The position numbers and the translations under genes are program-made. Positions 1-9,163 of a stretch of DNA of 64,000 nucleotides are shown piece by piece (positions within the stretch are counted from its first letter, which is position 1; every line of letters begins with the position of its first letter). The DNA lies in contig JAJPJK010000006.1 of NCBI GenBank assembly GCA_021324265.1, positions 1 to 64,000 on the forward strand. Direction: 5' to 3'. This DNA is from Thermoproteota archaeon. Its GTDB lineage: Archaea > Thermoproteota > Thermoprotei > Gearchaeales > Gearchaeaceae. The notes beneath the pieces were generated by a model, which did no database searches, was not told where the DNA came from, and saw only the letters and a list, made by a program, of their open reading frames with translations.

Positions 1-73
1 AATTGATTCATTGAAGTCTTTCATCCCCAGTTCTCCATCTTATATAGAAGATGCTTTTGATTGGTTGAATTGA
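1..73 (+). CDS. C-terminal end of an unidentified protein (cut by window edge)
   Basis: An open frame runs from the window edge to a TGA at 71-73 and encodes about 23 residues ending in EDAFDWLN. The next gene has a TTG codon at 70-72, so the two would share the string TTGA, an overlap style used by other gene pairs here. That is the main argument that this is the tail of a real upstream gene. The tail is too short to assign a family. Confidence 0.45.
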   Translation, partial: IDSLKSFIPSSPSYIEDAFDWLN

Positions 74-1272
74 GTAAAAATCTTACTTTTTTGACGGTTA
101 TTGTTATAACAGCTATTGGTGCTTTTATCAGACTTTATGACCTTTCCTCAAGACCACCCTTCTTTCCTGATGAAGAGGTATATTATAGAACTGCTGAATA
201 CTATGCCTTTGGCATTGTTAATCCGCTATACATGCAACTCCAAAATGGTATTTTTATAATATATTCTCCCAACCATGTCAATTATGAGCATCCTCTGCTA
301 GGTAAACTTATCATGGCCTTAGGGCTGCTACTCTTTGGCAATTCATTGTTAAGTGCAAGACTTATCGTTTCCCTTTTCAATATCATATCAATCCCATTTG
401 TATACCTGATTGGACGGAAATTATTGACAAATAACAAAGCTCTCCTATTCACCGCATTATATGCAATAGACCCGCTAAATGTATCATTATCGAGAGCCGC
501 AATGCTCGATTCTTTATGTCTTTTCTTTTTTGTGTTAGGTCTATTTGCATACATTTACGTTAGGGATTCAAGGCTTAGATATTTACTAATTACGCTTATG
601 TTCGCGCTAGCTTTTGCTGTTAAGCTAACAATGCTTCCTTTGATCATTTCGCTTATTCTAATAGGGATTTTTGAATTAAAGAATAAAAAGCCAATTGCTA
701 TTTCGTTCTCACTCGCTCTAGTCTTCTTAGTTTTCATACTAACCTATTTACCGTACTTTTATTCAAGTGTAAATATTTCAATCCTACCTCCGCAGTATAA
801 ATATCTAGATTATGGTAGTCATACGTTCTTTGATTTCCTTAATTTAATAAATTGGATCTATTTGTATAATTTCTATTGGCATATGTCAAATAATTTTTAT
901 TATCCTATTTATGATAATCCTTTCTATTATACTTTATATCAGAATGGTGTTTATCAGATGTTTAATTCAAATCCATTAATTATTCTCTCTGGAATACCAT
1001 TACTAATTTTATACCCTTATTACAATCTTTTTATAAAGAAAACGAATGAGCATTTTTTATTGTTAACTTTATTATTTTTACCTCAGGCATTTCTTTTTTT
1101 CCTTAAAGGCCTTTCGTGGTATCTTGTGGTATTTAACTTTATGTCACTTTTAATCGTTTTAGATATCAAAACTAAGAGCGGTTCGTTATCAGACTTGCTA
1201 TATTTTTTGTTAATTTTCTCCATATTTGTATCGAGCGCAGCAATGACAGTTGTTTACTTTCTATTTCAGTAG
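70..1272 (+). CDS. Membrane glycosyltransferase of the GT-C / PMT_2 (ArnT-like) type
   Basis: A hydrophobic protein of about 400 residues with roughly ten membrane segments. Just after the first segment it carries an acidic loop, PPFFPDEEVYY, and later a YEHPLLGK motif. Both fit PMT_2/GT39-GT83 enzymes, where the loop acidic pair is catalytic. Family members move a sugar from a polyprenyl-phosphate donor to a protein or lipid outside the membrane. The polyprenyl-phosphate pathway genes elsewhere in this window could supply the donor. A TTG at 61 directly follows a stop; TTG at 70 is preferred because it overlaps the stop of the preceding gene. The 3' end overlaps the convergent regulator gene by 12 bases. 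Donor and acceptor cannot be told from sequence. Confidence 0.7.
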   Translation: MSKNLTFLTVIVITAIGAFIRLYDLSSRPPFFPDEEVYYRTAEYYAFGIVNPLYMQLQNGIFIIYSPNHVNYEHPLLGKLIMALGLLLFGNSLLSARLIVSLFNIISIPFVYLIGRKLLTNNKALLFTALYAIDPLNVSLSRAAMLDSLCLFFFVLGLFAYIYVRDSRLRYLLITLMFALAFAVKLTMLPLIISLILIGIFELKNKKPIAISFSLALVFLVFILTYLPYFYSSVNISILPPQYKYLDYGSHTFFDFLNLINWIYLYNFYWHMSNNFYYPIYDNPFYYTLYQNGVYQMFNSNPLIILSGIPLLILYPYYNLFIKKTNEHFLLLTLLFLPQAFLFFLKGLSWYLVVFNFMSLLIVLDIKTKSGSLSDLLYFLLIFSIFVSSAAMTVVYFLFQ

Positions 1273-1947
1273 ATGATAAAGTACAGAATATGCGCCATTA
1301 ATTGTGTTTTCTCTTCTATCGCCACAGGATAATAGAATAACATCACCTTTTTCGATCGTAGTTTCTTTTTTCAAAAAGCTTTTAAACTCTTTGTATTCCT
1401 CTCCTAAAGGATAACCATCAGGAAATTCAATACCCTCACTTCTATAAACAAGTGTTATCAATGCTTTTGTTCCAAATCTTATGGCTATATCTCGCTCTTC
1501 AATTCCCTTCTTGATCTTGTCTGCCTTATCTCTGAGAATCAAAAGATAATTATAATCGCCCAATGCAAGATCTGCGAGTAGTTTTTTATCGCAGAAGCTC
1601 TCAAAGACTATTGCTTTATCCAAGACATGGAAGAGTTCAATTCCCTTTCTTTCTAAGCTTATGCCAGATCTTATAACCTTTATTATTCCCATTTTCTTAA
1701 GATGTGTGACGATTGTCCTTATTGTGCCTTCTCCTACGCCCAGTTCTTCAGCCAATTTTGCTCTTGAAATCAATCCATTCTTACCCACGATTCTTATTAA
1801 ACGAATTATTTCGATAACCGTGAATGAAGGCTTTGCCCCCCTATTCTTTGGTTTAACAATATTTTCTAGTTGTTCCAGCATTCGAGTAATATCTCTCGTA
1901 TAGGAATAAAATCTTATATCAGACTTTTTCTTCAGTTCTTTCGTCAT
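1261..1947 (-). CDS. HTH transcriptional regulator with C-terminal DUF4443 domain
   Basis: About 228 residues. Residues 45-105 form a winged-helix DNA-binding domain (ISRAKLAEELGVGEGTIRTIVTHLKKMGII is a clear helix-turn-helix plus wing). The remainder matches my recollection of the archaeal DUF4443 family and probably senses a ligand. The ATG at 1947 is chosen over a TTG six bases upstream. The gene is divergent from an ECF S component, and a perfect 9-bp inverted repeat lies between them, so autoregulation plus control of the transporter is the likely job. That role is inferred from layout; no member of the family with known ligand is recognised here. Confidence 0.7.
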   Translation of the reverse strand: MTKELKKKSDIRFYSYTRDITRMLEQLENIVKPKNRGAKPSFTVIEIIRLIRIVGKNGLISRAKLAEELGVGEGTIRTIVTHLKKMGIIKVIRSGISLERKGIELFHVLDKAIVFESFCDKKLLADLALGDYNYLLILRDKADKIKKGIEERDIAIRFGTKALITLVYRSEGIEFPDGYPLGEEYKEFKSFLKKETTIEKGDVILLSCGDRRENTINGAYSVLYHLLK

Positions 1948-1962
1948 CTTCAATAATCCTTA

Positions 1963-1987
1963 AATATTGGATAAATATTCCAATATT
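1963..1987. promoter_or_regulatory. Perfect inverted repeat, candidate operator in divergent promoter
   Basis: Two exact 9-base arms, AATATTGGA at 1963-1971 and TCCAATATT at 1979-1987, are separated by TAAATAT. The repeat covers the space where TATA elements of both divergent genes should lie (TAAATATT at 1961-1968 for the rightward gene, and the complement of ATAAATATT near 1971-1979 for the leftward one). It ends one base before the ATG of the transporter. Binding here would block both promoters. The DUF4443 regulator next door is the obvious candidate binder. Confidence 0.7.
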
Positions 1988-1988
1988 A

Positions 1989-2522
1989 ATGGCTATCCAA
2001 AATTCAGCCTTGAAGATAACAATAACAGCTATCTTCGTGGCTATAGCATTGGTGACGAACTACTCGTTGATATGGCTTCCGCAGGTGAAGCTTATGGACG
2101 CGATAATATTTCTGATAGCATATTATTTTGGTCTTCAGTATGGTATCGGTGCAGCAGTACTTACAAGGCTGATCTATGGGGTTATAAATCCCTATGGTTT
2201 TGACTTTTACTCTCTTTTAATGGTTATATCGGGAGAACTTTTCTTCGTATTGCTTGCTGGCATATTTAGGAAATTAGTTAAACCTGAAGAACTTTTTGCG
2301 AACAAGGCTAATTTATTCTTACTATCTTTCTTCGCAATTTTGGCAACATTCCTATTCGATCTCTATACAAATGCTTTAGTTGGTCTGATTTGGTACAGAT
2401 CTATAATGCTCGGTTTGGTCATGGGTGTGCCTTTTGGACTAATGCATCAAATAGCGAATCTTTTTATAACCCCAGTACTAGTACCAGCCGCAGTTTATCT
2501 TTTCCAAAGATTTGGTGTTTGA
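1989..2522 (+). CDS. ECF-type transporter S component (substrate-binding membrane subunit), vitamin uptake
   Basis: A 177-residue protein with five to six membrane segments. The N-terminal part, with LPQVKLMDAIIFLIAYYFG followed by a glycine-rich turn and NPYGFDFYSLLMVISGE, resembles S components of energy-coupling-factor importers. Such subunits bind a vitamin and need a shared T subunit and two ATPases, none of which are in this window. The next gene encodes a DUF4430 protein, a fold shared with cobalamin-binding proteins, so a cobalamin-like substrate is the best guess. The start ATG directly follows the operator, which implies a leaderless mRNA. Confidence 0.7.
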   Translation: MAIQNSALKITITAIFVAIALVTNYSLIWLPQVKLMDAIIFLIAYYFGLQYGIGAAVLTRLIYGVINPYGFDFYSLLMVISGELFFVLLAGIFRKLVKPEELFANKANLFLLSFFAILATFLFDLYTNALVGLIWYRSIMLGLVMGVPFGLMHQIANLFITPVLVPAAVYLFQRFGV

Positions 2523-2523
2523 G

Positions 2524-3027
2524 ATGAGCAGCCAAACTTCTAGATCTTGGGTTTATGTCTCAAGTATTCTAGGTATATTAGTCATCATACTGCTATCAAC
2601 TACGATATATTACTACTATCAATATACTGATATATCCTCCAAGTATAACGCATTGCTTAGCGCAAAGCCCATTACCATAAAGGTGAACTTACTAATAGAT
2701 TTCGGGAATGGAACTAAGAAATGGTATAATGGAACAACAAATTATGGCTCTACTTTACTAGACTACACTATTCAAGTTACAAATGGAAACGTTGTATGGA
2801 TTGATTACGGATCACCATCTAGGCCAACATATACCGGCTCACAAGGCTCTATAGACAAAAGTCAAGCCTTCGTAATAGCAATCCTTGGCGTTAAACAGGA
2901 TAACAATCATTATTGCTTATGGTATTATTATGCCTTTGGTAATTGGACGATGGGTCCTGTAGGAGCAGGTCAGTATACCCTTGGCAATAACTCAATAGTT
3001 TCTTGGGTATATACTGCAGCTAGCTAA
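2524..3027 (+). CDS. Membrane-anchored DUF4430 (transcobalamin-like) extracellular protein
   Basis: About 167 residues: a short N-terminus, one membrane anchor at about 12-34, then an outside domain with NGT/NNS sequons. The outer domain has the DUF4430 pattern: GSTLLDYTIQVT, a central ILGV strand, then YCLWYYYAFGNWTMGPVGAGQYTLGNNSIVSWVY near the end. DUF4430 resembles the cobalamin-contacting domain of transcobalamin and intrinsic factor. Start ATG 2524 lies one base after the transporter stop; an upstream in-frame ATG at 2512 lies inside that gene. It probably captures substrate for the S component. Cobalamin specificity is inferred from the fold. Confidence 0.65.
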   Translation: MSSQTSRSWVYVSSILGILVIILLSTTIYYYYQYTDISSKYNALLSAKPITIKVNLLIDFGNGTKKWYNGTTNYGSTLLDYTIQVTNGNVVWIDYGSPSRPTYTGSQGSIDKSQAFVIAILGVKQDNNHYCLWYYYAFGNWTMGPVGAGQYTLGNNSIVSWVYTAAS

Positions 3028-3028
3028 A

Positions 3029-3035
3029 TTTTTTT
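3029..3035 (+). terminator. T-run terminator after the uptake genes
   Basis: Seven consecutive T residues begin two bases after the stop of the DUF4430 gene. Oligo-T runs are sufficient for archaeal termination. The next gene has its own TATA element just downstream, which fits an operon boundary. Confidence 0.5.
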
Positions 3036-3040
3036 AAGTA

Positions 3041-3048
3041 TTTATATC
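3041..3048 (+). promoter_or_regulatory. TATA element for zinc ribbon-cinA-GPN operon
   Basis: TTTATATC is centred about 25 bases before the ATG at 3070. There is no ribosome binding site between, so the transcript is probably leaderless. Confidence 0.5.
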
Positions 3049-3069
3049 CTTTAGCTTGTTTCTATAAAG

Positions 3070-3267
3070 ATGAAGGAGTGCTTAGAGTGCGGGAGTACTT
3101 CGATTAGGTTTGAAAAAAATATTAGAGCTTTTATTTGTGAAAATTGCGGATTTATGATTACAAGGGATGAATACTATAAGCTTAGAGATGATGAAAAGAA
3201 TAGTCGGAAAGGAAAAGAAGAAAATAGTAAGGAATTATATAAATGGCTTATTTCTAAGAAAGAATGA
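3070..3267 (+). CDS. Small zinc-ribbon protein
   Basis: 65 residues. The N-terminal half is a zinc ribbon with CLEC near residue 4 and CENC near residue 23, like the ribbon of TFB. The C-terminal half is a charged lysine/glutamate helix. It leads a three-gene operon and overlaps the next gene by ATGA. A nucleic-acid or transcription role is plausible, but nothing specific can be assigned. Confidence 0.6.
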   Translation: MKECLECGSTSIRFEKNIRAFICENCGFMITRDEYYKLRDDEKNSRKGKEENSKELYKWLISKKE

Positions 3268-4064
3268 TTTTTTCTGAAATTATTGTAGTTGGCCGTGAAA
3301 TTCTTCAAGGCCGTGTCCTTGATACAAATTCTAATTGGCTTGCTGTTCAGCTAAGGAATTTAGGAATTAGGGTGAGGAGAATATTCGTGGTCGATGATGT
3401 AAAGGAAGAAATTGAAGACGTGGTCATGAATGTGATTTCAAGGAGACCCAATTTAGCGATATTCACTGGAGGTCTTGGGCCTACGTTTGATGATATAACT
3501 GTAAGCTCTATCGCCTCTGCTCTTAAGCTAGAATTGGTAGAGGATCCTTTAGCTTTGAAATATATTAGAGAAATGTGTGAAATGAGGAATTTGCCATTAA
3601 GCAATGAAAGAAGGAAGATGGCACTTATTCCTAGAGGAGCTTTTGCTCTTAAGAATGGGATTGGCATGGCACCCGGTGTTTACATAAAATATAACGATAT
3701 TCATTTCTTTTTATTACCCGGTGTTCCTGCAGAAATGAAAGATATATTTGAAAATGAGGTTAGAAAAAGACTTGAGGTGCTTGAGGGAAGAGAATATTAC
3801 AAAGAGATATACATAGAAATTCAAGGCATACCCGAATCAGATCTAGCACCTGTGATCAAAAAGTATAAAGATAGATTTGAACCAATCTACATCAAATCTC
3901 ACCCTAAAGGACATGAGTCTGGTTTGAGCAGGATCATTCTCCATTTATCGGTCTTTACTGACAAAAAATCTGACCTTGATTTACTTGAAAATGTTAAAGT
4001 TGAGCTTATGAATGAACTTAAGCTGAAAGCGAAAAGAATTGAATTGGTGGATTCTCTGAAATGA
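3264..4064 (+). CDS. CinA N-domain / molybdopterin-binding-fold protein
   Basis: 266 residues with the MoCF fold: an N-terminal GREILQGRVLDTNSNWLA segment, the IFTGGLGPTFDDIT loop, and a later FFLLPGVPAEMKDIF segment. These are hallmarks of the CinA N-terminal domain. In bacteria CinA proteins are linked to pyridine-nucleotide repair and nicotinamide-nucleotide metabolism; the archaeal single-domain form is less well defined. The C-terminal deamidase domain is absent, as is usual in archaea. It overlaps both neighbours by ATGA. Confidence 0.75.
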   Translation: MIFSEIIVVGREILQGRVLDTNSNWLAVQLRNLGIRVRRIFVVDDVKEEIEDVVMNVISRRPNLAIFTGGLGPTFDDITVSSIASALKLELVEDPLALKYIREMCEMRNLPLSNERRKMALIPRGAFALKNGIGMAPGVYIKYNDIHFFLLPGVPAEMKDIFENEVRKRLEVLEGREYYKEIYIEIQGIPESDLAPVIKKYKDRFEPIYIKSHPKGHESGLSRIILHLSVFTDKKSDLDLLENVKVELMNELKLKAKRIELVDSLK

Positions 4065-4828
4065 CATCTTTTATCTACATATTAGGCACAGCTGGTTCAG
4101 GTAAGTCTACGCTTGTATCTGCACTTTCAAATTACATTGAGAAGTACAATAAATTCTGTGTTAACGTAAATCTTGATCCCGGTGCAGAAACTTTGAGTTA
4201 CGATGCAATTGTTGATATTCGAGAATATGTCAAGCTAGATGAAGTGATGAGAAAATTCAATTTGGGCCCAAACGGAGCACTAATCGTAGCCACAGATCTA
4301 ATTGTGAATTACTTGCCTGAAATCAAAAAACTGATCCTAGATGAAAATCCTGATTACGTGATAATTGATACGCCTGGCCAGCTGGAACTATTTGCCTATA
4401 GAGAAACAGGACCTGCAGTAATTTCTTCTTTTTCAAACAGAAATTCTATTGTGCTCTTCTTACTAGATGCGTTTCTTGCCCAAAGCCCCCATAACTTTAC
4501 CTCCATGTTATTGCTATCTGCATCGATTCAGGCAAGATTTTTGTTGCCCTATTTGTTAATCCTTTCGAAAACTGATCTACTTTCTGCATCATCTCTTGAG
4601 AAAATCATAAGTTGGTCAGAAGATCTTTCGAATCTTCAAGAGGATTTGGAAAGTGAAGCTAATGTCTTTAATAGAGAACTTTCTCTCAATTTAATCCCCA
4701 TTTTAAGCAACATGAGTATCCCGTCTTTGATACCTATTTCGTCTATTAACATGTCAGGCTTTATGGAACTCTATGCTGAAATTCAAAGGGTTTTAGGTAA
4801 AGAAGATGAGATCTCTCTAGATCAATAA
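4061..4828 (+). CDS. GPN-loop GTPase
   Basis: 255 residues. P-loop GTAGSGKST at residues 9-17, the family signature GPNGAL at about 70, switch segment DTPGQLELF at about 108, and an LSKTDLL base-recognition motif. This is the archaeal homologue of eukaryotic GPN1-3, dimeric GTPases needed for assembly or nuclear import of RNA polymerase II. The archaeal role is not settled. Translation is coupled to the CinA-like gene by ATGA. Confidence 0.85.
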   Translation: MTSFIYILGTAGSGKSTLVSALSNYIEKYNKFCVNVNLDPGAETLSYDAIVDIREYVKLDEVMRKFNLGPNGALIVATDLIVNYLPEIKKLILDENPDYVIIDTPGQLELFAYRETGPAVISSFSNRNSIVLFLLDAFLAQSPHNFTSMLLLSASIQARFLLPYLLILSKTDLLSASSLEKIISWSEDLSNLQEDLESEANVFNRELSLNLIPILSNMSIPSLIPISSINMSGFMELYAEIQRVLGKEDEISLDQ

Positions 4829-4829
4829 T

Positions 4830-4844
4830 AAAATATATATATAT
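4830..4844 (+). promoter_or_regulatory. TATA-rich promoter of the coiled-coil gene
   Basis: An uninterrupted A/T tract (AAATATATATATAT) lies 36-50 bases before ATG 4880. A purine-rich AAGGGG at 4862-4867 could serve as a ribosome binding site, so this mRNA probably has a short leader, unlike many neighbours. Confidence 0.4.
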
Positions 4845-4879
4845 GGCATAGAACCTATATCAAGGGGAATTTTAAGAAT

Positions 4880-5779
4880 ATGGCAGCCGAACAAGCAAAG
4901 AAGGAAGGCTCTCCTTTGTACCTTGATAAACTAAGCGAAGAAGAATTAGAGGAAAAACTTTCGGAAATCAAATCTATGATGTTGTATAAGAAAAAAGAAA
5001 TTTATACCTTGATCCAAAAAAGATCAGAGCTTGTTAGAGAAGCAGGTAGTATAAAGAAGGAAATCATGAAACTTAGAGAGGCTATATCTGCTCAGATGCA
5101 AAGGTCTGAAAGCATAAGAAAAGAGCTGGAAAATTATAAGACTTCTAGAATGAGTTTAGCGGAGGAGAAGAGACGTCTTTATCAACAACTCCAAAATATA
5201 CAAACCCAAGTAAAGGATGATAAGGACAAGCTATTGAGCAGATTGGCAAAACTGGAATGGATACAGCAAACCACACCCCTACCACCTGATGAAGAGCTAG
5301 CCATCATAGATAAGATAGCTGAACTGGAGAGAAAAAGTCTCATAATAGAAAAAGGCGAAAAATTCAAAGAAAAAACTAAGGAGGTTAATCTTCGAATAAA
5401 TGAATTGTTGGCTAAGAGGGAGGCATTAGTTGAAGAATTAGTTAAAGTCAATCAGATAATAAAAGAGTTCAAGAAACAGATACGTGATCTTATGAACCAA
5501 CTTATCAACAAATCTAAAGAAATCGATAAGGTCAAGGAATCGCTACTTAATGCCATTAAAGAGTATGCAGATATAAAAGAGGAGTACGGTAAAATTAAAG
5601 ATGAAATAGTAAGGAGAAGGCTTTCGATAAAGGCACGTGTATCAGAGAAAACCGTGGATATGGAGCAAGAGCTTGCAAAGCAAGCCTTAGAAAAATATAA
5701 AAGAGGAGAAAAGTTGGATCTAGCTGAATTACAGATTCTTTACAAACAGTATGGAGATAGTTTCGGAGTTTCCGAATAA
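4880..5779 (+). CDS. Archaeal coiled-coil protein (COG1340 type)
   Basis: 299 residues, nearly all charged heptads. Two long coiled coils are broken by a proline-containing hinge near residues 132-140 (TTPLPPDEEL). The tail, EKYKRGEKLDLAELQILYKQYG, is compact and resembles the conserved end of the COG1340 family. Eukaryotic relatives include the ribosome- and mRNP-associated Bfr1. No enzymatic motif is present. A ribosome or RNA-associated scaffold role is inferred from the family only. Confidence 0.7.
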   Translation: MAAEQAKKEGSPLYLDKLSEEELEEKLSEIKSMMLYKKKEIYTLIQKRSELVREAGSIKKEIMKLREAISAQMQRSESIRKELENYKTSRMSLAEEKRRLYQQLQNIQTQVKDDKDKLLSRLAKLEWIQQTTPLPPDEELAIIDKIAELERKSLIIEKGEKFKEKTKEVNLRINELLAKREALVEELVKVNQIIKEFKKQIRDLMNQLINKSKEIDKVKESLLNAIKEYADIKEEYGKIKDEIVRRRLSIKARVSEKTVDMEQELAKQALEKYKRGEKLDLAELQILYKQYGDSFGVSE

Positions 5780-5790
5780 CACAAATAAAA

Positions 5791-5796
5791 TTTTTT
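5791..5796 (+). terminator. T-run terminator after the coiled-coil gene
   Basis: Six T residues start 12 bases after the stop codon and precede the promoter of the DUF373 gene (AATTTTAAGTAATT around 5807-5820). Confidence 0.35.
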
Positions 5797-5836
5797 AGCT
5801 ATTTTGAATTTTAAGTAATTTGTCCATATTAGATCA

Positions 5837-6928
5837 GTGGCAGAGAATTCAAAGAGGATATTAATATTATACGTAGATAGAGACGGTGATATATCTAGTG
5901 TAACTAAGGTAGCGACGCCGATAATAGGTAGAGAGAAAAACTATAATGCCGCATTGAATTTTGCTCTTAACGCCCCAGAGGATTCTGATTTGAATGCTCT
6001 TTTCTATGCGATAAAGCTTTATGACGAATTTAAATTCAAGAAAGTTTTCAAGGATTGCGAAATAGCTACTATATCTGGACAGTTAGAAAGCGGTATTGAA
6101 TCAGATATAAAAATTAGGGAAGAGTTGGATAAGGTGCTATCTGTTTATAAAGCAGATGGAGTTGTATTCGTTAGCGATGGAGGTAGGGATGAACTAGTTA
6201 TACCTATCATATCTTCTGTAATTCCGATTATAGCTATAAAAAGGGTTGTTGTGGGACAATCTGAAGGTGTTGAAGAAACATTTGTAATACTTTCAAGATA
6301 TTTTCGTAAGATATTGAATGAACCCAATCTAAGGCGGGTCATTATAGGTATTCCTGGTGCTCTGATAATAATATATGTCCTGCTTGCTTTTTTGAATTTA
6401 AGTCAACTTTTTGCTTTGACTTTCTTGCTCGTAATCGGTTTAGTTGCATTTGTCAAAGGTTTCAACGTTGATGAGCTAGTCTTTCAAGCTTGGAGCAACT
6501 CTAGAATTCAAGTCATTAGCTTCATTCTCGCTTCTGTACTGATTATCTTAGCTATTTATAATGGTGCAAATTTTGCTTATAGTTTTCTTTCAAAAAATCC
6601 AGATGCTCAGGTTCTCCAGATTATAGGTGAGTTTTTGATGGCTCCGTTTGCATATTCACTGAATACTGTAATAATTTGTACAATAGCGCTAGTAATATTC
6701 GTGAGTTCTAGACTTCTCGAACATTACTTAGATTATAAGCCAATAAAATTTGATCTGATTAATCTATTCTTTGTTGTCTCTATGGGCATTATCTTCATGT
6801 ATATCGGAAATGTGCTTAAATATCCTTCTTTTGATTTTGTTGTTTTCGGCGTAAACGCAATATTCATAATACTGCTATTGTTTTTACTAAATATCGTTGT
6901 AGCTATACTTGTAAGGATTTATGAATAA
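5837..6928 (+). CDS. DUF373 family membrane protein
   Basis: 363 residues. The soluble N-terminal domain (1-165) starts with ILILYVDRDGDIS and contains a GREKNYNAALNFALNAPEDSDLNALFYAIKLYDE segment typical of DUF373. The rest holds about six membrane segments. Start GTG 5837 has an AT-rich TATA-like element about 25 bases upstream and no SD. The family is archaea-wide and of unknown function. The 3' end overlaps the convergent peptidase gene by 10 bases. Confidence 0.75.
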   Translation: MAENSKRILILYVDRDGDISSVTKVATPIIGREKNYNAALNFALNAPEDSDLNALFYAIKLYDEFKFKKVFKDCEIATISGQLESGIESDIKIREELDKVLSVYKADGVVFVSDGGRDELVIPIISSVIPIIAIKRVVVGQSEGVEETFVILSRYFRKILNEPNLRRVIIGIPGALIIIYVLLAFLNLSQLFALTFLLVIGLVAFVKGFNVDELVFQAWSNSRIQVISFILASVLIILAIYNGANFAYSFLSKNPDAQVLQIIGEFLMAPFAYSLNTVIICTIALVIFVSSRLLEHYLDYKPIKFDLINLFFVVSMGIIFMYIGNVLKYPSFDFVVFGVNAIFIILLLFLLNIVVAILVRIYE

Positions 6929-8001
6929 TCTAGAGGAAAAGTTGTTAGTAGTTCAGCTTTGTTTTTCTTGACCAACACATCTTGTTCTAATCTAATTCCA
7001 TACTTATTGGGGAAGTAAACTCCAGGTTCAACGGTAACTACATAATTCTCTTCTAGAGTGTCTTCTGATAGGCTACTGAGCGAAGGATATTCATGCACAT
7101 CCAATCCAAGTCCATGGCCAAGGCCGTGGTTAAAATATTTATCGATTCCAGATTTCGCCAAAACATTTCTAGCGATTGAATCCACTTCTTTACCCTTTAC
7201 ACCCTCCCTAATTCCTGAAATTGCTTCCTCCAACGCTTCTTTTACAGTTTCAAACACTTTCTTTTCTTCTTCACCTATTCTTCCTTTAACAAAAGTCCTA
7301 GTAATATCGGCACAGTATCCGCCTGCTTCATCTTTTCCTCCTATATCTACTATTATGAAACTATTTTCTACAATAATGTTATCTGAAGGTATTGCATGAG
7401 GATATGCTCCATTTTTACCTGAAGCGATTATAGGTTCAAATGCAAACCATTCGCATCCATTCTTTAGAAGTAGTTTCATTGTTTCAAGTGCAGCTTCTTT
7501 TTCAGTCAAGTTCTTTGTTTCTATAAGTCCTTTAAGCTCCATGAGTGTTTTCTCAGTTTTAACTATAGCTTTTTTGATTTTCTCTATTTCACTTTCATCT
7601 TTTTTCGCTCTTATCAGAGCTATTTCTTTAAAGATATCTGAAAGCTGAAATTTAGATTCGAGCCTTTTAGCAAGCATTGTGGGAAGGCTATTTGATTCGA
7701 TTCCTATCTTTGCTTCTTTCTTAACGTTAATTTCAATTATATCTTCCAGCTTGGATCCTGTCTTAAGCTCTATGATTTCGCATCCTTTCGCTTCATTCTT
7801 TACGGATTCAATTTCAAGCGGATAAGTAAGGACGAATATGTTTTCCTTGCTTGCAAGTAAATAAACAGATCTTTCCGGGTACCTATTGGCAATTACATCT
7901 GTAAAATAGCGTACTGTTGAAGCATTAGTTGTAAAGAATGCATCGAGATCCAATTTTTCCAATGTTCTTTGCAATTTCTTTTGTCTTTCAATTATGCTCA
8001 T
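6919..8001 (-). CDS. pepQ: Xaa-Pro dipeptidase / aminopeptidase P family metallopeptidase
   Basis: 360 residues, the usual two-domain layout: creatinase-like N-domain (1-130) and pita-bread catalytic domain. Metal ligands are visible in order: the two Asp of VDIGGKDEAGGYCADITRTF, the His of NHGLGHGLGLDVHE, and the Glu of VTVEPGVYF and IRLEQDVLV. It cleaves dipeptides or N-terminal residues before proline and completes cytosolic peptide breakdown. It is convergent with DUF373, and the NurA-like gene lies 25 bases upstream on the same strand. Confidence 0.88.
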   Translation of the reverse strand: MSIIERQKKLQRTLEKLDLDAFFTTNASTVRYFTDVIANRYPERSVYLLASKENIFVLTYPLEIESVKNEAKGCEIIELKTGSKLEDIIEINVKKEAKIGIESNSLPTMLAKRLESKFQLSDIFKEIALIRAKKDESEIEKIKKAIVKTEKTLMELKGLIETKNLTEKEAALETMKLLLKNGCEWFAFEPIIASGKNGAYPHAIPSDNIIVENSFIIVDIGGKDEAGGYCADITRTFVKGRIGEEEKKVFETVKEALEEAISGIREGVKGKEVDSIARNVLAKSGIDKYFNHGLGHGLGLDVHEYPSLSSLSEDTLEENYVVTVEPGVYFPNKYGIRLEQDVLVKKNKAELLTTFPLDYS

Positions 8002-8026
8002 AATATTACAATCGCTAGAATTCGAT

Positions 8027-9163
8027 TTAAACGAAATTTGCCATAAGACCGATCTTTCTCCTGTAGTTCCTTGTCATTTCATCCTTTACCATTAAGTCTA
8101 TGAGTTCAATGATTTCCTTTCTTTTGATTTTCTTACAAACGAGATTTCCATTTGCCTTATTCAATGCATAAATCCCTTTTTTTCTCAGTTTTTTTATGGA
8201 TAGCTTGTATTCATTCAACAACATGGCATGGATGGTTTCGATATGATTTAAGGCAAATCCTGGGATTTCAATTCTCTGGATCACGTCTTTATCGAGTCTT
8301 ACGTAAAAGAGAAAGCATTTTTCCTTGGTATAAGGATTGTCGAAGACCTGATTGGAATATTCAAATACAGGTGTTCTATCTCCAATCTCTAGTTTTCCAG
8401 CAAAGTATAGCTTATCGCTGATTAAATCAAAATTTTGCAAGAGATTTTTTTGTCCATTTTTTTCCATCATGATAAGGATTGAAGCCAAGAAGGGAGAGCC
8501 GTTATAGCTGCTTAAAGATACAGGTATTATGTTGAGACTTCTTGTGGTCAAAAGAAAGTTCTGTAGCATTTCGAATATCTTGTCTCGATCTTCCTTTGGG
8601 AAATGTAACCAATCTATGCAAGATAACGAGAAATCTACTAACAAGAGCTTCATAATTTCTGCATCATTTTCTTTTGTTAATGTTTCGCTGAGCATCTCAA
8701 GAATGTCCTCAATCCTTTCTCTTGCTTCTGAAAAGTAATTTTTTGGTATTTTTTTAAGTACTTTCAATTTGTAAACGTTCTTGACCGTTTCTCCTTTTTT
8801 ATATTTTTTTGTAAATGCGAGTTCATAAAGTCTAAAAGGAGGTAATACTTCATTGAATAATTCGCTATTAAAAGCTACCGCTTCAATCTTAGCTTCAGAG
8901 TAACCTTCTTGTTTAACACTTACGGATATGTTTTCGATTTCTTCAGCATTCCTTGGCCATGCTATTTCATCTATATTGAATAAAATTAATGGGTCATCTG
9001 AAATCAAGTTTCCTATTTGGTATAGCCCAAGATCTGAAAGTCTCAAATTGTCTATGAATTTTAGGTTCGTTGATATATTGTTCAAATAGTAGTTGAACTC
9101 TTTAAACCTTTCCCTTAATTCCATATGTAAACTATCGATGAGTGTGAGTTTATTCGGTTTCAT
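8027..9163 (-). CDS. NurA-like protein with altered catalytic motifs
   Basis: About 378 residues, weak match to the NurA 5'-3' nuclease fold. LLLVDFSLSCIDWL resembles the NurA second motif (normally DGS-L), and FLFYVRLDKDVIQRIEIPGFALNHIETIHAMLLNE resembles the C-terminal strand, R-E-P segment and helix. The first DGS motif is not seen, so nuclease activity is doubtful. ATG 9163 is preferred over one at 9220 because a TATA element lies 27-34 bases before it and not before the other. No HerA ATPase is nearby. It could also be an unrelated archaeal family; family assignment is tentative. Confidence 0.4.
   Translation of the reverse strand: MKPNKLTLIDSLHMELRERFKEFNYYLNNISTNLKFIDNLRLSDLGLYQIGNLISDDPLILFNIDEIAWPRNAEEIENISVSVKQEGYSEAKIEAVAFNSELFNEVLPPFRLYELAFTKKYKKGETVKNVYKLKVLKKIPKNYFSEARERIEDILEMLSETLTKENDAEIMKLLLVDFSLSCIDWLHFPKEDRDKIFEMLQNFLLTTRSLNIIPVSLSSYNGSPFLASILIMMEKNGQKNLLQNFDLISDKLYFAGKLEIGDRTPVFEYSNQVFDNPYTKEKCFLFYVRLDKDVIQRIEIPGFALNHIETIHAMLLNEYKLSIKKLRKKGIYALNKANGNLVCKKIKRKEIIELIDLMVKDEMTRNYRRKIGLMANFV

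Follow-up and report, generated by a model that had tools for sequence, protein, structure and literature searches.

The DNA analysed here, a 64,000-nucleotide window covering bases 1-64000 of the 198-kb contig C20 in a 1.45-Mb Thermoproteota genome (95% complete), carries three adjacent genes that very probably form a corrinoid acquisition cassette, with a DUF4443 protein serving as repressor of corrinoid acquisition on a palindromic operator. All three open reading frames were confirmed. The DUF4443 regulator lies on the minus strand (1261-1953, starting at TTG 1953 or ATG 1947) and diverges from an S component of the energy-coupling factor (ECF) type, a membrane substrate-binding subunit of the CbrT kind with a predicted corrinoid substrate (1989-2522, plus strand). 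A DUF4430 surface protein of the CbrS kind follows (2524-3027, plus strand, with an alternative start at 2512). Regulator and S-component genes are separated by 35 bp and have the palindrome TAAATATTGGATAAATATTCCAATATTAA in common. Gene calls and Pfam agree with the arrangement given in the original prediction, made from the sequence alone, and its proposal of a cobalamin-capturing module is now supported by kinship with CbrT, a transcobalamin-like fold, linkage to B12 and cobalt genes, a conserved operator and the presence of shared EcfA and EcfT subunits.

The S component belongs to the Pfam family ECF_trnsprt (PF12822, E=1.5e-8, above the cut-off), and among S components its sequence is closest to CbrT. 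CbrT came first in every profile test. When the S-component profile was compared with all PDB chains, the best match was 6FNP_A (1.7e-8), followed by 4HZU, which we take to be HmpT (4e-5), and RibU (0.09), while a profile centred on the window's own subfamily, one of two divergent S subfamilies among the DUF4443-linked loci, matched 6FNP alone (6e-7). Alignment to bacterial CbrT with hhalign gave probabilities of 98.4% for the family profile and 95.5% for the window sequence by itself, against at most 1% for three other S components of contig C20. In the profile alignment, the window's HQIANLF stands opposite HAMGNLLF of CbrT. The relationship is distant (about 20% identity), and the protein is best regarded as a relative of CbrT rather than an orthologue. 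The structure 6FNP is that of ECF-CbrT, a proven transporter of both cobalamin and cobinamide (PMC5997447). Membership in a family with a different proven substrate would have refuted the original prediction; the window's S component belongs to no such family, and a corrinoid is the predicted cargo.

The DUF4430 protein scored under the Pfam cut-off (PF14478, E=1e-3, 19.9 bits against 23.8), so the assignment needed other support; this came from a 12-member alignment, a profile match to bacterial DUF4430 proteins, and the predicted fold. Its AlphaFold2 model, of moderate confidence (pLDDT 82.8, pTM 0.65), comprises a long N-terminal anchor helix (residues 4-47) and a beta domain placed outside the cell. 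All 15 matches of the model in the PDB at E<=0.001 were to transcobalamin or haptocorrin, in keeping with the cobalamin-binder fold originally ascribed to the family, and the modelled domain appears to adopt the transcobalamin beta-domain fold. It resembles the beta domain of transcobalamin, haptocorrin and intrinsic factor (TM ~0.73, normalised to the human beta domain, 5np4), although the window protein is membrane-anchored, lacks the large alpha barrel of these carriers and is only 10-16% identical to them. Of 300 genomes surveyed in the phylum, 103 carry a DUF4430 protein of the window type, and for most of the 30 best an S component is detected no more than 1.5 kb away.

Bacteria provide a counterpart to this pair. 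In Lactobacillales, DUF4430 and CbrT genes lie beside the B12-dependent reductase gene nrdJ and an adenosyltransferase gene: the order is nrdJ - adenosyltransferase - DUF4430 - CbrT on a Lactiplantibacillus plasmid and nrdJ - DUF4430 - CbrT - adenosyltransferase (PduO) on a plasmid of Lactobacillus intestinalis, while a DUF4430 - CbrT pair occurs on an Enterococcus raffinosus plasmid and DUF4430 and NrdJ genes diverge from CbrT on one of E. gallinarum. Taken with loci L193 and L194, the order nrdJ-cbrS-cbrT-pduO in Lactobacillus delbrueckii (PMC5997447) points to cbrS as the likely DUF4430 gene. ECF-CbrT/CbrS (6FNP) would then resemble the window pair in combining a DUF4430 protein with an S component of the same family, with no dedicated ECF module adjacent, and the L. 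delbrueckii host, like the window genome, has NrdJ and is without BtuCDF (PMC5997447). In contrast to ECF-CbrT, the window pair is archaeal, has its own regulator gene, and adjoins neither an adenosyltransferase gene nor nrdJ.

The organism needs vitamin B12 and is apparently unable to make it. Its genome encodes the adenosylcobalamin-dependent ribonucleotide reductase NrdJ (504 bits, cut-off 400) and both subunits of methylmalonyl-CoA mutase, plus MeaB. Searches of the 95% complete assembly gave no match to CbiC, which acts in corrin synthesis, to CobS, which acts in nucleotide-loop assembly, or to FecCD/BtuC permeases, and control genomes gave matches for each of these families. Among the other cassette genomes, none has CbiC and only G228 has CobS; where DUF4443 lies beside btuCD or cob genes, CobS is kept in five of six genomes. 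No energising module adjoins the three genes. A stand-alone EcfA-EcfA'-EcfT set is encoded on contig C10 (~125.2-127.6 kb), in agreement with the earlier expectation that the S component would draw on shared subunits.

The regulator is a clear member of its family (PF14544, E=2e-22, above the cut-off). An N-terminal winged helix-turn-helix (HTH; about residues 45-115), matching CggR_N and HTH_24 in Pfam, is joined to a C-terminal DUF4443 domain (132-228) that contains a conserved R-D motif, with R154, D155, A157 and G161 invariant in the alignment, and is likely to be the sensor. The AlphaFold2 model (pLDDT 95) has one convincing match among solved folds, PH0730 of Pyrococcus horikoshii (2P8T; profile E=1.7e-42, Foldseek E=5.7e-10), a full-length homologue. 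Within the phylum, 236 of 300 genomes have DUF4443, mostly as a single copy, and the only control genome with a match was that of Sulfolobus acidocaldarius. The literature searched mentions DUF4443 nowhere, and the paper naming PH0730 merely lists that protein. A parallel may be drawn with RbkR (Rodionova 2017, cited in PMC8305020). Reportedly an archaeal riboflavin kinase and regulator, RbkR is likewise a winged-helix protein of archaea dedicated to the control of vitamin genes, and it is divergent from an S component in the window genome, but it has another C-terminal domain and shows no kinship to DUF4443 beyond the HTH.

We sampled the surroundings of DUF4443 at 100 loci spanning about 45 taxonomic families; with the window this makes 101 loci, and in 31 of the 101 DUF4443 adjoins a B12 or cobalt gene. 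Three unrelated systems are involved: S component plus DUF4430 (10 families), btuCD or cobTSYZ (5) and cbtB (2). The co-occurrence of all three cassette genes, proposed as a check on the module, is seen as adjacency in 14 loci from 10 families, counting the window, in several orders and orientations. The second group includes cobT-cobS-cobY-cobZ-DUF4443 as a single run (L068), DUF4443-cobZ divergent from btuF-btuC (L066), and btuC-btuD-DUF4443 in five loci (L059, L069, L091, L127 and L128). Among the B12-gene annotations overall, CobT, CobS, CbiB and CobD pass their equivalog cut-offs, and the labels BtuF, BtuC, BtuD, CobZ and CobY denote best family matches below theirs. In family f12, of Nitrosopumilaceae-like genomes as judged by inferred lineage, the neighbour is cbtB, a cobalt transporter subunit gene. 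On well-supported branches of the DUF4443 tree, the S/DUF4430 label changes at least six times, the btu/cob label three times and the cbtB label once, indicating that linkage to cobalamin genes arose or was kept repeatedly in independent lineages. The original prediction named DUF4443 genes lying away from the cassette genes as a refuting observation, and this is the case in many relatives, where the operator is nonetheless usually still present at the S/DUF4430 genes. As a separate observation, DUF4443 is close to ATP-pyrophosphatases of a Dph6-like family in L059, L069 and L043.

The candidate operator TTGGATAAATATTCCAA (1967-1983, no strand) is the core of a palindrome that extends over 1960-1988, and lies 5 bp upstream of the S component's ATG and 13 bp upstream of the regulator's TTG. 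It differs from TTGGATAANTTATCCAA at two positions and is the sole intergenic match at three or fewer mismatches in contig C20, where no further operators were found. Palindromes are common in this AT-rich contig, and the window palindrome alone was therefore not used as evidence; we take the site as real since it is kept at the same place in relatives, which bears out the operator originally suggested. At this place the sister genus has the perfect consensus TTGGATAATTTATCCAA (L036, 5316-5332). Other promoter sites are TTGGATAAATATCCAA in L048 and TTGGATAAACCATCCAA at the divergent cobZ/btuF promoter of L066, and the longest form is a 21-bp palindrome, TTGGATGGATAATCCATCCAA.

Palindromes resembling TTGGATaannnATCCAA precede S/DUF4430, btuF, btuC, cbiB, cobD and cbtB genes. 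A scan of 1.15 Mb for TGGAT-N2..9-ATCCA returned 42 matches, most of them intergenic, where Markov-shuffled sequence gave 5-13, and the genes behind the matches, identified after the scan, included those for BtuF (L197, L198), CbiB (L198, L210), CobD (L201) and CbtB (L061). In a held-out test that omitted the training loci (L036, L048, L066 and L200) and counted DUF4443 among the B12-type genes, the motif was present at 20 of 182 B12-type promoters and 6 of 932 others (odds ratio 19, p=7e-12, with related loci non-independent); four of the latter six either have their promoter region in common with a B12-type gene or are immediately upstream of one. Furthermore, the motif occurs at S/DUF4430 genes unlinked to DUF4443 in G225, G083, G069, G213 and G158, as well as in G289 (no listed DUF4443 position), in relaxed form in G030 and G046, and as TTGGATTATCCA in G200, which removes the confounding effect of linkage. 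In two families (L131, L133, L172 and L173), the site before the S gene reads TAGGCAAAATTGCCTA or TAGGCAAAATTACCTA in place of the TTGGAT form, which suggests a co-evolved regulator specificity. In L185 (G069), S component and DUF4430 are on opposite strands, each with its own operator copy (915-933 and 1957-1971).

Computation thus provides the gene families, the fold resemblance, the linkage, the conserved palindrome and the gaps in the B12 pathway; on this basis we can propose a mechanism for the cassette, in which substrate, hand-over, DNA binding, effector and direction of control are inferred. The anchored DUF4430 protein would catch a corrinoid at the cell surface through its transcobalamin-like beta domain and pass it on to the CbrT-like S component, for which the shared EcfA-EcfA'-EcfT set on contig C10 would serve as energising module. 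With corrinoid in sufficient supply, the DUF4443 repressor would bind the palindrome between the divergent genes, with cobalamin or another corrinoid as the most likely effector. In archaeal genes whose leaders are this short, the TATA box is found some 26 bp upstream of where transcription begins. Given the 5 bp and 13 bp that separate the site from the two start codons, a bound protein would therefore lie over both start-proximal promoters and could control uptake together with its own synthesis. Repression is the simplest reading of this geometry, and activation is also possible.

Several observations weigh against this interpretation. Some 70% of the sampled DUF4443 genes (70 of 101 loci) lack any B12 gene within 3.3 kb, and in Thermococci the PH0730-type homologue, on a single 3.1-kb fragment (L192), lies beside pyrF, unlike the B12-type surroundings in the window; the ancestral role of the family could therefore be wider. 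The window palindrome is by itself near chance (1.07 matches expected per 64 kb at three or fewer mismatches). Across the sample, the strict pattern precedes just 4 of 97 DUF4443 genes, and the operator is missing or altered at the linked loci L045, L162, L166 and L171, and takes the TAGGCAAAATTGCCTA form in L131 and L133. One genome, G051, has the motif and gave no DUF4443 match, and no second operator was found at the NrdJ or mutase genes of the window genome. At 95% completeness, the absences of B12 genes from that genome are not absolute, and five cassette genomes also carry full or partial FecCD permeases. The loci without B12 neighbours and the near-chance palindrome might suggest that neighbourhood and palindrome are coincidental and that DUF4443 regulates something unrelated; we consider this very improbable, because three unrelated B12 or cobalt systems lie beside DUF4443, the motif recurs at unlinked B12 genes, and the motif is enriched in the held-out test, albeit among non-independent loci. 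It is unlikely, though less far-fetched, that the pair imports corrinoids while DUF4443 senses another signal, such as cobalt, a nucleotide or general nutrient status, with B12 genes only part of its regulon. The pyrF neighbour, the position of cbtB in Nitrosopumilaceae-like genomes and the conservation of DUF4443 across most of the phylum, usually as a single copy and often beside a GPN-type GTPase gene, would fit such a role, but cobalt supply alone leaves unexplained the operator at genes specific to B12 salvage and uptake (cbiB, cobD, btuF and S/DUF4430).

The substrate may also be questioned. S components resemble one another, the sister S subfamily is weakly similar to riboflavin and folate S components in NCBIfam, and L215 gives a riboflavin-type Pfam match, so that the S component might carry a different vitamin, such as riboflavin or folate, beside a DUF4430 protein acting as a generic surface domain. 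We regard this as improbable in view of the consistent first rank of CbrT, the fold and bacterial gene context of DUF4430, and the better assignment of riboflavin uptake to an S component that is divergent from an HTH-riboflavin kinase gene. Finally, cobalamin riboswitches are the common means of control in bacteria, and the palindrome could in principle belong to one that controls the cassette. Just 5 bp separate the palindrome core from the S-component start codon, however, and Rfam returned no RF00174 match in window positions 1-9000 or in nine related loci; a riboswitch was rejected, and we attach next to no weight to it.

Beyond the corrinoid cassette, the genome contains other ECF-type genes. 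Two more S components on contig C20 (136553-137909, L079; 194742-196084, L082) each have a divergent HTH gene as neighbour. That of L079 is confirmed as HTH plus CTP-dependent riboflavin kinase (PF01982), and that of L082 looks alike; these likely represent riboflavin uptake under RbkR-type control. A further S component lies upstream of a deoxyhypusine-synthase-like gene (C20, 89515-90177). On contig C10, an S component (PF09819), a long fused-looking ABC ATPase and EcfT (~99.2-102.1 kb; L206, 1206-4118) lie next to a ThiE-like gene and have the look of a thiamine-precursor transporter of the YkoEDC type. Next to the cassette, genes for a Zn-ribbon protein, a MoaB/CinA-like protein and a GPN-type GTPase (window 3070-4828) recur near DUF4443 in many families and probably represent its ancestral neighbourhood.

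No protein sensing vitamin B12 in archaea was found in the literature searched, and the present analysis offers a named candidate protein, an operator and a list of targets. A CBL-box of some archaea is said to have been proposed by Rodionov et al. in 2003 as the predicted site of a then-unknown B12 regulator; if its consensus matches, the new contribution would be the identity of the CBL-box regulator. The analysis also assigns an uptake route to many B12-dependent archaea without corrin synthesis. Marine ammonia-oxidising archaea are described as major B12 producers (PMC8123684), and in them cbtB seems to have this same regulator beside it. Overall, DUF4443 is probably the archaeal B12 repressor of this phylum, where one protein family and one operator would govern three unrelated cofactor routes, namely ECF-CbrT/DUF4430 uptake, BtuFCD uptake with corrinoid salvage, and CbtB cobalt uptake in B12-making ammonia oxidisers, and would take the place of the bacterial riboswitch.

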